Below, piece by piece: positions 30,331 to 35,157 of a stretch of 38,405 nt of DNA. The stretch covers positions 1 through 38,405 of the forward strand of contig CAIRWM010000129.1 of NCBI GenBank assembly GCA_903882285.1, read 5' to 3'. The position numbers and the translations under genes were made by a program. This stretch comes from an uncultured cyanobacterium. GTDB lineage: Bacteria; Cyanobacteriota; Cyanobacteriia; PCC-6307; Cyanobiaceae. The notes under the pieces are model-generated. The model saw only the letters and a program-made list of their open reading frames with translations. It did no database searches and was not told the origin of the DNA. Each line of letters starts with the position of its first letter. The first letter of the stretch is position 1.

Positions 30331-30762
30331 TCAGGACTGCGGTGGCGACTCCGCCGGAACACTCGTTGGCGCCGGAGCCTCCTCCCCCTCGCCGTGCCTC
30401 TCGCTGGCCCCCCCGCCGGCAGCCTCGTCGGCTTCGGCTTGCGGTGATGGTGCGTCGGCGCCCCCCTCCGCCGCACTCTCCTCACTACGTGGCAGCGGCA
30501 CCTCCCGGGTGCGCTTGATCGGCAGGTTGGCCAGAAGGGCCGTCACCCGGTCTTCCGTCTCCAGGCTCACGTCGCAGCTCTCGAGGTCGATCTCGACGTA
30601 GCGCTGGACCACCTCAAGGATCTCGCGGCGCATCTGCTCGAGCAGTTCGGGGTTGAGGTCGCTGCGGTCGTGGGCGAGCACCAGTTGCAGGCGCTGCCTG
30701 GCCAGGGTGCCGCTCGGTTTCTGGCGGCCCAGCAGGCGATTGATGAAATCGAGCAGGGTCAT
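30331..30762 (-). CDS. minE: Cell-division topological specificity factor MinE, long C-terminus (143 aa)
   Basis: Stimulates MinD ATPase to drive its release from the membrane and keep division at midcell. The first 25 residues [20 protein letters not shown] form the membrane-targeting and anti-MinCD region. [21 protein letters not shown] is the conserved contact helix, and [17 protein letters not shown]-like sequence forms the dimerisation fold (here [20 protein letters not shown]). The fold ends by about residue 90. The last ~50 residues are rich in Glu, Ala, Pro and Ser and look disordered; ordinary MinE is 85-100 residues. It follows minD by 5 bp. Confidence 0.95.
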
Positions 30763-30767
30763 GGCGC

Positions 30768-31601
30768 TCAGAAGAGTCCGGTGGTTTTCCTGATCTTGTT
30801 CATGAGGCGAGACCGCAGGCCCTGCCGTTCCTTGGAGGGATCGATCAGGGGGACCGCCTCGCCTCCGAGGCGGCGGGCGATGTTGCTGTAGCCACGGCCG
30901 GCCGGTGAGTTGGCGTTGTTGAGGGTGAGCGGTTCGCCGCGGTTGGTGGAGACGATCACCTGTTCGTCCTCCACCACGAGCCCCAGCAGCGGCAGCGCCA
31001 GCAGATCGGAGACCTCGTCCACCGAGAGCATCTCCTGGCTGGCCATCATCTTCGGACGCACCCGGTTGAGGATCAGCTGCACCGGCGTCACGCCCATGCT
31101 GTTGAGCAGGCCGATCACCCGGTCGGCGTCGCGCACGGCCGACACCTCCGGATTGGTCACCACGATCGCCTCACCGGCGGCTGCGGCGGCATTTTTGAAG
31201 CCCTGCTCCACCCCCGCCGGAGCGTCGATCAGCACGTAGTCGAAGCGCTCGGCGAGCATGCCGACAATCTTTTGCATGTCTTCTGGCGTCAGCCACTCGA
31301 GCATGCGCGGGTTGCCGGCGGGCAGCAGGGAGAGGTTGGGTTCCTGCTTGTGCTTCACCAGCGCCTGATCGAGACGGCAACTCTCTGCCAGCACCTCCTG
31401 GGCGGTGTAGACGATGCGGTTCTCCAGGCCCAGCAGCAGGTCTAGGTTGCGCAGGCCGAAGTCGGCATCGAGCACGGCCACCGACTGTCCCAGCTTGGCA
31501 AGGGCAATGCCCAGGTTGGCGGTGAGGGTGGTCTTGCCCACGCCTCCCTTGCCGGAGCAGATCAGGATGGTGCGGGCGGGAGCTGACGTCACGGCATCCA
31601 T
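30768..31601 (-). CDS. minD: Septum site-determining ATPase MinD (277 aa)
   Basis: Membrane-cycling ATPase that recruits MinC and is displaced by MinE. The deviant Walker [17 protein letters not shown] lies at residues 16-31, with Lys18 and Lys23. Switch regions are [20 protein letters not shown] and [16 protein letters not shown]. The C-terminal amphipathic membrane-targeting helix is [17 protein letters not shown]. The length is right and nothing is missing. Upstream on the same strand should lie minC, but here about 1.5 kb of opposite-strand DNA intervenes, so minDE must have their own promoter in 31602-31724 or beyond. Confidence 0.97.
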
Positions 31602-31724
31602 AGGCGTTGAAGCAGGTTAGGGCGAAGCGGCCCATCCTGCTCCGCGCGCTCACGACTCGGTAGCGGCAACGCTCGACAGTTCTGAGGCGCTCTTCTAGAA
31701 CATTGCCTCGCCGTGAGCTCAACG

Positions 31725-32723
31725 ATGGCTGATCTGCTCCATCCCCATCAGCGCCTGGTGGTGATGCCCGACGACGGCGGTCGCACCGTGGTGGAGCTGA
31801 TTGATGCGGCCTCCGAGCAGTTGCGCCTAAAGCAGTTCAAGCTTCAGTCCGAAGCCATTGAGCAGGCCCTGCAACGCGCCCGTCAGCGGGGGGTGCGGGT
31901 GAGGGTGATGCTCAATCCCCACACCTCCGGCGGGGATCGTTGTAACGATGAAGCCGATGTCCGGCTGCAGGCAGCCGGCATCGAGACCGCCTGGACCTCC
32001 GAGGCGTTTCCAGTCACCCATGAAAAGTCCATGGTGATCGATGGCCACTCCGCCTTGATCGCCACCTTTAATCTTGCTGATAAATACTTCACGGAAACGC
32101 GCGATTACGGCATTGTCACGCAGAATGCCACCGTGGTGGCTCAGGTGATTGCTGGCTTTGAAGCCGACTGGAATCGGCAATTTTTCGTGCCTGAACTTGA
32201 CGTGGGCCTGGTCTGGAGCAGCGCGCACAGCCGCGGGCAGATGGCCCGCATCATTGATGCTGCGACCAGCACACTCTGGATTCAGCACCCTAAATTTGTG
32301 GATTCGGTGATTCTGGAGCGCATCATCTGTGCCCGCGATCGGGGGGTCAAGGTGAGAGTGCTGTGCGGCGGGAAACATGGCATCAGTGACTGTGATATCT
32401 ATGACACCTTTTCGTCGCTGCGGATCATGCAACGCTTCGGTGTAAAAGTGCGTCGTCAGAAACATCTCAAGCTGCATGCCAAGTTGATTTTGGTGGACGG
32501 CCGCTACGCTCAGACCGGCTCTATGAATATTGATCGCAGCGCCTTTGACCTACGCCGCGAACTTGGTATCGAGAGTGATTGCCCAGATGTTGTGCAGCGT
32601 CTCAGGAGGGTCTTCCAGGCCGATTGGGATGAGGCCAAGAAATACGCCGCTCCCGACCCGCTGGACCCCAGCATGCATGAGGCCGGTGAGCTGCCACCGG
32701 ATCCCCAATTCATCCATGATTGA
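31725..32723 (+). CDS. Phospholipase D-superfamily protein with two HKD motifs (332 aa)
   Basis: A phosphodiesterase or phosphatidyltransferase of the PLD superfamily (which includes cardiolipin synthase and nucleases). Motif 1 is His99-x-Lys101-x4-Asp106 in THEKSMVIDG; motif 2 is His251-x-Lys253-x4-Asp258 in LHAKLILVDG. Each is followed by the usual downstream block (LIATFNLAD and AQTGSMNIDRSAFD). No signal peptide or membrane segment. GTG at 31713 is an alternative start to ATG 31725. The coding sequence is visibly lower in GC than its neighbours, especially 32030-32560, which suggests transfer. It stands on the opposite strand between minD and minC, with the last 8 bases overlapping a decayed chromate transporter gene. 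Lipid or nucleic acid substrate is undecided. Confidence 0.9.
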   Translation: MADLLHPHQRLVVMPDDGGRTVVELIDAASEQLRLKQFKLQSEAIEQALQRARQRGVRVRVMLNPHTSGGDRCNDEADVRLQAAGIETAWTSEAFPVTHEKSMVIDGHSALIATFNLADKYFTETRDYGIVTQNATVVAQVIAGFEADWNRQFFVPELDVGLVWSSAHSRGQMARIIDAATSTLWIQHPKFVDSVILERIICARDRGVKVRVLCGGKHGISDCDIYDTFSSLRIMQRFGVKVRRQKHLKLHAKLILVDGRYAQTGSMNIDRSAFDLRRELGIESDCPDVVQRLRRVFQADWDEAKKYAAPDPLDPSMHEAGELPPDPQFIHD

Positions 32724-33121
32724 GAACGTCCCGAGTCCCAGGCAGCTGTTTTTCGGCATGCTCCAAGTGGCCCTGTCCTCCTTAGGTGACGGCCTTTCGG
32801 CCTGGAGTCAACGGATCGTGGTGGGGCAACGTGGCTGGCTCAGCAACGAGGAATTCTTCACCGGTCTGACGGTGGCGCGTCTGTTCCCCGGGCCCAATCA
32901 GATCAGCATGGCATTCTAAATCGGCGCCTCGTTCCTCGGGCTCAGCGGTGCTCTGTGCTGGAACCGGCTGCGCGATTCCCCCTGGCGCGTGGCATTTGAT
33001 TGAGCGCGGACTGGGGCCGATCACGATGGGCATTCTGTTCGCGGTCGGTGTGAAGATCCTGCACAGGGCGGACAGCAATGCCGCGGGCGTGCTGGGCGTT
33101 CTGGGAGTGATCAACCGTTGA
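32716..33121 (+). pseudogene. Chromate transporter (ChrA-family) remnant
   Basis: The frame starts MIENVPSPRQLFFGMLQVAL and continues LSSLGDGLSAWSQRIVVGQRGWLSNEEFFTGLTVARLFPGPNQISMAF, matching the N-terminal helix and the FGGG/GWL-x-E-E-F/PGPN motifs of the ChrA family (sulfate/chromate-proton exchangers). A TAA at about 32917-32919 interrupts it. Short pieces follow (IGASFLGLSGALCWNRLRDSPWRVAFD, then a shifted frame with LIERGLGPITMGILFAVGVKIL and LGVLGVINR), matching the family's C-terminal helix. Most of the middle of a ~190-residue domain is missing. The start overlaps the PLD-like gene end, so the two probably arrived as one unit. Confidence 0.8.
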
Positions 33122-33133
33122 GGTAGGCCGGGT

Positions 33134-33850
33134 TCAGTCCGCCAGAGGCCAGCTCGGGGTGGCGGGATCGATGCGGATGGCGCCGTCCACCAGCCGCGCC
33201 TCCTCCGCCTGGCCTGCGGGCGGTAGCTCTTCGGGGCCCCGGGCCACCGCGGCTGCGATGCGCAATTGAAGCGGGCGCAGCTGCAGCGCCACGATCTTCG
33301 CATCCTGGTAGCCTCGTCGTCCGGCATGAGCCATCCCGCGCAACCTTCCCCAGACCAGCACGTGGCCATCGGCGCTGATGCGTGCTCCGGGGTTCACATC
33401 CCCCAGCAACAGCACAGAGTTGGCGCATTGCAGGTGATCCCCGGAGCGCAGGGTGCCGCGGTGAATCGTCAGCGGCGTCAGCGAGGTTTGCTCTTGGCTC
33501 GAGGGGTTCGTCTCAACCGGTGGCAACGCTAGCGGCGCCGCTGGGCCTGCGTCCGAGGGCGAGGGCTCCCCGATCAGCCCCAAGGCCGCTGCGGCCACAA
33601 GCGTTTCAGGCCGGCTACTGCTCATGTGCTGCAGCGACAGCCCGGCGCCGTCGAGCAGGGTCTGCAGTTCGCGCAGCTCCGGCAGGGTCAGCAGCCAGGC
33701 CCCCGCCTCCAGGCGCACCGGACCCCGCAGGGCCATGCTGCCCAGGCCGTAGCGCACCTCCTCCAGGGCCCGGCCGGCCCCGCCGGGGTCGGGGAGCTGC
33801 AGCTCATGGGGCTGCCGGGGGGAGATCGCCGGGATCAGAACGGCGGCCAT
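33134..33850 (-). CDS. minC: Septum site-determining protein MinC (238 aa)
   Basis: FtsZ assembly inhibitor. The N-terminal half (about residues 10-95) is the divergent FtsZ-binding domain. Then a Pro-rich linker (LIGEPSPSDAGPAAPLALPP) leads to the C-terminal beta-helix domain that binds MinD: HRGTLRSGDHLQCANSVLLL, GDVNPGARISADGHVLVWGRLRGMAHAG, a firm signature. ATG at 33848-33850 gives MAAVLIPAISPRQPHELQLP, the likely family start; a longer frame upstream overlaps the HD gene. The stop lies 13 bp after the ChrA remnant's end. It lies 26 bp after the HD gene on the same strand. Confidence 0.93.
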   Translation of the reverse strand: MAAVLIPAISPRQPHELQLPDPGGAGRALEEVRYGLGSMALRGPVRLEAGAWLLTLPELRELQTLLDGAGLSLQHMSSSRPETLVAAAALGLIGEPSPSDAGPAAPLALPPVETNPSSQEQTSLTPLTIHRGTLRSGDHLQCANSVLLLGDVNPGARISADGHVLVWGRLRGMAHAGRRGYQDAKIVALQLRPLQLRIAAAVARGPEELPPAGQAEEARLVDGAIRIDPATPSWPLAD

Positions 33851-33876
33851 CGGGGCGCTACGCAGGCGAGCAAAAC

Positions 33877-35157
33877 CTAGGGTCGCCCAGAGGCTTCTGT
33901 CCTCTCCGTACCCGGGGCGTTGCACAGCAGGTCGTCGAGGTCGGCGCTCACCTCGCGCGGGTGGATCAGCCAGGCCGTTTCCTGGGCCTGGGCCAGGGTG
34001 TCCACCAGCGCCGAGCGCTGCTCCAGGGCCTGGAGGCGCTGGCCATCCCAGAGGCGCAACCCCCCCTGATACACGTTGTAGCCGCGGCTGGAGAGCTGCT
34101 GCAGCCCGCAGCAGCTCTCAGGATCCAGTCCGGCCGCCGTTGCCAGGCGGCGCGCCTGGGCCAGCAGCTCGAGCCGTCGACTCCTGGCATGGTCGCTGAC
34201 ATCGGTGGCGCGCAGCAGGCGGCGATCCAGCAGCCGGCCACAGGGATCGGCCAGCTCCTTGGGCCCTTCCTCCCGCCAACGGGCCAGGTGATAGCCGGTG
34301 CGGATGTCGTCGTTGGCCAGGTAGGTGTCGATGTCCAGGTCCCCGGGCTCCCAGAGCCAGCGCGCCATCGCCGGGTCGGCCCAGATCTGCTCCGGTCCGA
34401 GGCGGCGGGCCACGGCGATCGCCCGCATCAGCAACCAGGTGCTCACCACGTTGAGCCGGTGGTTGTAGACGCTGCGGTACATCAACTGACGCACAACCAG
34501 GTAGTGCTCGACCGCCAGCAGCCCCTTCGGATGCACCGCGAGGCTGCCGTCCGGGGCCAGGGTGAGCGAGGCCTGAATCCGCTGCAGATCAAGCTGGCCA
34601 TAGCTGGTCCCCGTGCTGTGGCTGTCGCGCAGCAGATAGTCGAGTCGGTCGCAGTCGAGCTGGCTGCTGACCAGGGCCTTGATGGCGCCGCAGCGATGAC
34701 GCTCGTGCTCCAGCAGGTCGGCCACCTCCTCCGCCAGGCCGGGGCGTTCCGCTTCGAGGCGATCACGCAGGGCGGGGTGTTCGCGGATCAACCGCCCTGA
34801 CCAGTGCTCATGCCGGAGGCCGAACATCTCTTCCCCGGAGTGGCTGTAGGGCCCATGACCCACATCGTGCAGCAGGGCGGCCGCGTAGAGGCAGGGACGA
34901 TGCTCCGCCAGGGAGGGGCTGAGCCGCAGCAGATGATCCAGGGCCTGGCGGGCCAGGTGCAGCACCCCGAGGGAATGGGTGAAGCGGCTGGACTCCGCTC
35001 CCTGGAAGGTGAGGAAGGCCGTGCCCAGTTGCCGAATCCGGCGCAGCCGCTGGAAGGGGGCGGTGTCGATCAGATCGATGGCCAGGGCTTCGGCCGGCTC
35101 CCGCCTGTCGAGGCTGATCGCCCCGTGCAGCGGGTCGTGGTAGGTGCGCTGACTCAT
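33877..35157 (-). CDS. HD-domain phosphohydrolase, dGTPase-like (426 aa)
   Basis: Metal-dependent phosphohydrolase of the HD superfamily, resembling the SAMHD1/YwfO-type nucleotide triphosphohydrolases. Metal ligands are His61 (SSRFTHSLGVLHLA), His97 and Asp98 (ALLHDVGHGPYSH), and a later Asp in SSQLDCDRLDYLLRDS. RTYHDPLHGAISLD and RRIRQLGTAFLTFQGAE at the N-terminus are typical. The likely substrate is a deoxynucleotide triphosphate, which is inferred from the family and not from any visible specificity residue. The ATG shares bases with the stop of the Ctp protease (ATGA, 35154-35157), so it is translationally coupled to it; minC follows. The order Ctp, HD, minC, minD, minE is the expected one apart from the insert. 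Confidence 0.92.
   Translation of the reverse strand: MSQRTYHDPLHGAISLDRREPAEALAIDLIDTAPFQRLRRIRQLGTAFLTFQGAESSRFTHSLGVLHLARQALDHLLRLSPSLAEHRPCLYAAALLHDVGHGPYSHSGEEMFGLRHEHWSGRLIREHPALRDRLEAERPGLAEEVADLLEHERHRCGAIKALVSSQLDCDRLDYLLRDSHSTGTSYGQLDLQRIQASLTLAPDGSLAVHPKGLLAVEHYLVVRQLMYRSVYNHRLNVVSTWLLMRAIAVARRLGPEQIWADPAMARWLWEPGDLDIDTYLANDDIRTGYHLARWREEGPKELADPCGRLLDRRLLRATDVSDHARSRRLELLAQARRLATAAGLDPESCCGLQQLSSRGYNVYQGGLRLWDGQRLQALEQRSALVDTLAQAQETAWLIHPREVSADLDDLLCNAPGTERTEASGRP

Follow-up and report, generated by a model that had tools for sequence, protein, structure and literature searches.

Why are minC and minD separated by genes on the opposite strand in this uncultured cyanobacterium? In the window, by which we mean the whole stretch of 38,405 nucleotides that was analysed, minE (30331-30762; Pfam PF03776), minD (30768-31601; Pfam ParA/MinD-type ATPase models) and minC (33134-33925; Pfam MinC_C) lie on the minus strand, with an HD-domain gene (33877-35157, also minus strand) upstream of minC as a conserved neighbour that was used in the tree discussed below. 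A plus-strand insert (31602-33133) divides minC from minD and holds an intact phospholipase D (PLD)-like gene and a broken CHR transporter. The PLD-like gene encodes 332 aa, runs from an ATG at 31725 (alternative GTG at 31713) to 32723 and matches PLDc_2 with an E value of 9.9e-48, while the chrA-like ORF that follows on the same strand (32716-32919) gives a partial Chromate_transp match (E 1.6e-9) that covers 67 aa only. A sequence-only reading of the window had already noticed this split, an eight-base overlap of the two ORFs, the low GC content of the PLD gene and the lack of a visible transposase or flanking repeats, and all four observations hold. The ORF map and Pfam confirm the split, and the coordinates the overlap; the PLD gene has a GC content of 58% and a GC3 of 0.687, with values of 0.870 for MinD and 0.869 for HD. 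Neither the translations of ORFs of at least 60 aa nor Pfam searches with the two main ORFs reveal a transposase or integrase in the insert, no direct or inverted repeats flank its boundaries in the window or at two further loci (L078 and L183), and the repeat pairs within the region are short and imperfect, most of them lying in coding sequence. The answer that we favour, and consider very probable, is that the insert is an eroded copy of an old PLD - chrN - chrC operon that has been inherited with the min genes and lost repeatedly.

In relatives the insert is indeed a three-gene operon in which the PLD gene is followed by two genes for short-chain CHR halves, chrN (~185-200 aa) and chrC (~200-240 aa), each intact and encoding a single PF02417 domain. 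The window retains a 5' part of chrN (32716-32955, plus strand), which carries an in-frame TAA at 32917-32919, is truncated after ~80 codons and is then fused to a 3' part of chrC (32957-33121, plus strand) in which the chrC stop codon is preserved. Relative to G032, ~685 bp are missing at the junction, and the chrC remnant has a further internal deletion of ~70 bp; with a stop, a frameshift and the ~685-bp deletion, the chr reading frames are not intact in this genome. The deletion of ~0.7 kb fused chrN to chrC and killed both here, and it is because of this fusion that the transporter gene looks broken. The earlier description of a broken chromate transporter gene was correct as to the damage, but two genes left the remnant, not one. 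No other PF02417 gene was found elsewhere in this genome, which is ~90% complete. PLD and MinC share a contig at 103 loci (duplicates counted), and at nine of these, among them the window, the match to PLD, chrN or chrC is short or interrupted by a stop.

The insert might be taken to be recent and peculiar to this genome, a view that the distribution does not bear out. Searching 79 relatives for minD gave orthologs in 40 of the 41 same-genus genomes, the exception being a genome of 83% completeness with a weak minD match only (G001). The PLD gene adjoins minD as in the window in 29 of these 40; 27 of the 29 contigs reach on to minC beyond it, and the two others, from G010 and G021, end first. 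In the remaining 11 minC adjoins minD; five of them carry the PLD-chr genes elsewhere and six have no PLD match. In all seven genomes sampled from other genera of the same family minC adjoins minD and PLD is absent. In a wider sample of the family, the PLD gene is present in 90 of 261 genomes and 16 of 59 genera, with its presence varying within several genera. Among the minD matches listed, 68 of 91 PLD places share a contig with minD, 66 of them being divergent from minD and less than 250 bp away and the other two lying at 866-872 bp; the divergent intergenic region, 31602-31724 in the window, measures 55-168 bp in 66 family places. A genome scan, in which 80 of 102 relatives were kept (76 picocyanobacterial by match and neighbours, four Mycobacterium), places the insert beside minD in 70 of the 76 picocyanobacterial loci, on the minC side only in one and elsewhere in five. 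The filled clade is a large picocyanobacterial group that comprises records named Cyanobium, Vulcanococcus and, in many cases, Synechococcus, including RCC307. Comparison of the minC-minD gap, which the sequence-only reading had proposed, thus finds the same insert in the same position in most relatives, the very outcome that this reading had named as its refutation. What stands of the notion of a disrupted min order is that the split is derived relative to the outgroups, as the seven other-genus genomes support, but it is not recent.

The trio is able to move, two genomes holding it between minC and HD (G244 and G255) and five holding it elsewhere. It lies between miaB and ddl-ftsQ in G030 and G035, before ddl-ftsQ in G029, where miaB is seemingly disrupted, and next to mnmG in G033; in G031 it adjoins the hypothetical gene that also accompanies it in G033, on a contig that ends within chrN. 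In G029 (L162, 2-391 and 4663-4857; L114) the matching parts of the apparently split miaB are ~4 kb apart, upstream of the moved trio. Outside the cyanobacteria, four Mycobacterium loci have chrN and then chrC downstream of a PLD gene whose product is 54-55% identical, and PLD and chrN of Mycobacterium sp. M26 overlap by the same eight bases as in the window. An order-wide sample contains nine genomes out of 249 (centre included) that match PLD at E 1e-60 or better; chrN adjoins PLD in eight of the nine and a clear chrC is present too in seven, while the most divergent has neither chrN nor chrC in the flank read. No min genes occur in the mycobacterial stretches read around the trio. The finding of the trio in the same order in mycobacteria and picocyanobacteria is new, and no description of PLD-chrN-chrC was found in the literature searched. 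Separately, a contig whose title names a Bifidobacterium breve MAG (L156) encodes a picocyanobacterial PLD-chrN-chrC-minC-HD array, and the record is probably mislabelled or contaminated.

Conceivably, the trio is a unit that is mobile or spreads laterally and has reached the min site repeatedly, through homologous exchange of this part of the genome. Four kinds of site are occupied (minC|minD, minC|HD, before ddl-ftsQ and next to mnmG), presence differs within several genera and mycobacteria have the trio as well. Nevertheless, we regard this scenario as unlikely: neither a transposase nor boundary repeats are seen, and site and orientation at the min locus are the same throughout. The relationships of the flanking genes speak against it too. 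A tree of MinD+HD was built from 100 rows, which were left of 138 labelled loci after short MinD or HD and identical rows had been dropped. Here 73 filled, 13 empty and five moved rows (91 in all) fall on one side of a branch with a support of 100, and seven empty rows and the two whose trio sits at minC|HD fall on the other; the site state needs 11 changes on this tree, which rests on genes linked to the insertion site. In the module tree the copies from mycobacteria fall outside, and many clades agree with those of the MinD+HD tree; MinD+HD distances correlate with PLD+ChrN+ChrC distances (r 0.874, 70 rows), none of 999 permutations reaching as high a value. Moreover, some empty sites bear deletion scars. 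PLD 5-180 and ChrC 164-198 remain in G115, and in G256 the gap is 228 bp long, can be aligned over 185 bp at 75% with G105, across the minD-PLD junction and the beginning of PLD, and resembles the 3' end of chrC where it ends, so that both ends of the module are represented; the gaps of G145 and G246 have a chrC-like 3' end as judged by eye, and a clear scar was not found at the remaining empty sites inspected. The proposal of a mobile PLD-chrA unit survives in that the trio is found at other sites and in mycobacteria, but no mobility gene or repeat was detected and the trio is inherited with its neighbours at the min site.

Two of the gaps deserve a remark of their own. In G115 (L209) the two trio ends were left by an independent partial deletion that parallels the decay in the window. 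In G026 (L097) the minC-minD gap is unusually long (422 bp), gives no PLD or chr matches at E <= 0.001 and contains weak MinC/MinE-like matches only.

The simplest reading of the trees, distances and scars is one old insertion followed by vertical descent with the flanks and repeated erosion, with the window caught part-way. PLD - chrN - chrC would have entered the minC-minD junction in the ancestor of the large picocyanobacterial clade, oriented such that it is transcribed away from minD, and would have been passed on with the min genes, most lineages retaining it and several deleting it; in the genome analysed here the transporter is dead while PLD persists. Some re-gain by recombination is possible, given that 11 of the 40 congeners are without the insert and that the tree needs 11 changes.

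The persistence of PLD beside a dead transporter implies either that PLD has a role of its own or that the transporter was lost recently. The window's PLD looks constrained: its dN/dS to three sisters is 0.069-0.081, with 0.055-0.089 among the sisters, and it deviates at three of 163 near-invariant sites (W73C, A194S and W223C; rank 12 of 81). Relaxed selection is unsupported, dN/dS being ordinary. Could PLD be a partner of the Min proteins, changing for instance the anionic lipid bound by MinD, such that its location is functional? The trio is retained beside minD, and where it has moved in G030, G035 and G029 its neighbour is ddl-ftsQ, likewise a cluster for division and envelope. However, the closest kin reside in mycobacteria, with no min genes around them in the stretches read, the trio has been deleted repeatedly without loss of the min genes, and mnmG, at the fourth site, does not belong to a division cluster. 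Such a partnership seems very improbable to us.

The sequence-only reading had also proposed that the insert cuts minDE off from its promoter and should, unless a new promoter exists, have altered Min stoichiometry. Neither proposal is supported. A promoter-like block, CTAACCTG (TAnnnT; 31613-31620, minus strand), lies 11 nt upstream of the minD start in the window and is seen in filled and empty genomes alike. Among the 91 of 113 rows examined in which the block is matched within two mismatches, a sequence near TTAACCTG ends 11 nt before the minD start in 72; if one mismatch is allowed, 54 of the 84 filled rows have the block (shuffled mean 1.4), as do 13 of the 22 empty ones (shuffled mean 0.3). 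Outgroup genera show it weakly and G244 and G255 lack it, and a generic sigma-70 consensus scan of 31560-31800 found no promoter. The block would suit a -10 element of the TAnnnT type, as in cyanobacterial promoters, followed by a leader of very few nucleotides, and may be a promoter. Since it is kept at minD whether the site is filled or empty, loss of Min expression is not implied; minDE would be read from its own start region just upstream of minD, and the split would be neutral for Min. That the insert arrived recently, severed minDE from its promoter and changed Min dosage here is scarcely credible, for although the PLD gene has a low GC3 and the insert is absent from the sampled outgroup genera, recency is refuted by its occurrence in many genera and in 29 of the 40 congeners that have minD, the promoter-like block still sits beside minD, and the low GC of the window's PLD gene, while real, is not unique, its GC3 deficit relative to MinD being the fifth lowest of 107 rows (mean -0.046; duplicates between two fetched sets included). 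The false lead of a newly disrupted min operon thus gives way to an old change in gene order that is tolerated by most of a major picocyanobacterial lineage. The window's MinD has peculiarities of its own: it deviates at seven of 171 near-invariant sites (rank 2 of 79), its dN/dS to the sisters is 0.12-0.23 as opposed to 0.035-0.07 among them, and it is nearest to G033 (87%), with PLD and HD nearest to another clade, a hint that this minD may be mosaic or fast-evolving.

What could the trio do? Its gene order is kept across two phyla, which argues for a joint function and implies that PLD, chrN and chrC may form a functional unit. ChrN and ChrC could perhaps pair as one two-subunit CHR anion transporter, as the short-chain class described in PMC8940164 would suggest, and the HKD enzyme might then act on whatever the transporter carries or on the lipid of the surrounding membrane. 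A more far-reaching scenario, which we think quite unlikely to be correct, is that the HKD phosphodiesterase and the split CHR transporter work on one shared substrate other than chromate (a lipid head group or a phosphodiester, for instance) as an unrecognised unit kept across two phyla, and that a picocyanobacterial tie to envelope and septum biology explains the min and ddl-ftsQ seats. The trio ties an enzyme class to a transporter family that is usually annotated only as chromate resistance, and it offers a testable clue to the role of short-chain CHR proteins outside chromate-stressed bacteria.

Among known systems, the PLD-like protein belongs to the PLD superfamily by its motifs and predicted fold. 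With PLDc_2 proteins (PF13091; 7e0m, Nuc nuclease, PLD3, cardiolipin synthases) it has in common two HxKxxxxD motifs, intact at residues 99-106 and 251-258 and invariant (H99/K101/D106 and H251/K253/D258) across 20 aligned sequences including the window's, and a two-domain fold; the AlphaFold2 model (mean pLDDT 83.9) adopts the two-HKD PLD fold, with PLD 7e0m as the top Foldseek match (E 4.5e-24, TM 0.78 over the query) and PLD3 among further matches. Yet it is at most 20% identical to these solved PLDs, and no membrane segment was seen in it. As for particular families, it scores 63.1 bits as a cardiolipin synthase, for which the NCBIfam equivalog cut-off is 290, and lies well below the NCBIfam cut-off for NucT. 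Phage records give only partial matches of at most 28% identity (12 records), and plasmid records a best match of 40.5% (12 records; Acidisarcina), so that neither origin is favoured; no chromate-transporter gene is annotated near the more distant PLD relative on the Acidisarcina or Mycobacterium avium plasmid, the two of the 12 that were inspected. The PLD-like defence protein DrmC of DISARM is the best NCBIfam and PADLOC match by domain, but the score of 72.6 bits falls short of the equivalog cut-off of 133, and the genomic partners here are CHR transporter genes. A sequence search with chrN returned no relatives in the PDB. The closest parallel for the transporter genes is the short-chain CHR (chromate ion transporter) class, described in PMC8940164: like its PF02417 pairs, chrN and chrC of the relatives are adjacent one-domain genes of ~190-240 aa. 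They differ from these pairs in that a PLD-like gene precedes them in the operon, an arrangement of which we found no description, and in the window the pair is broken.
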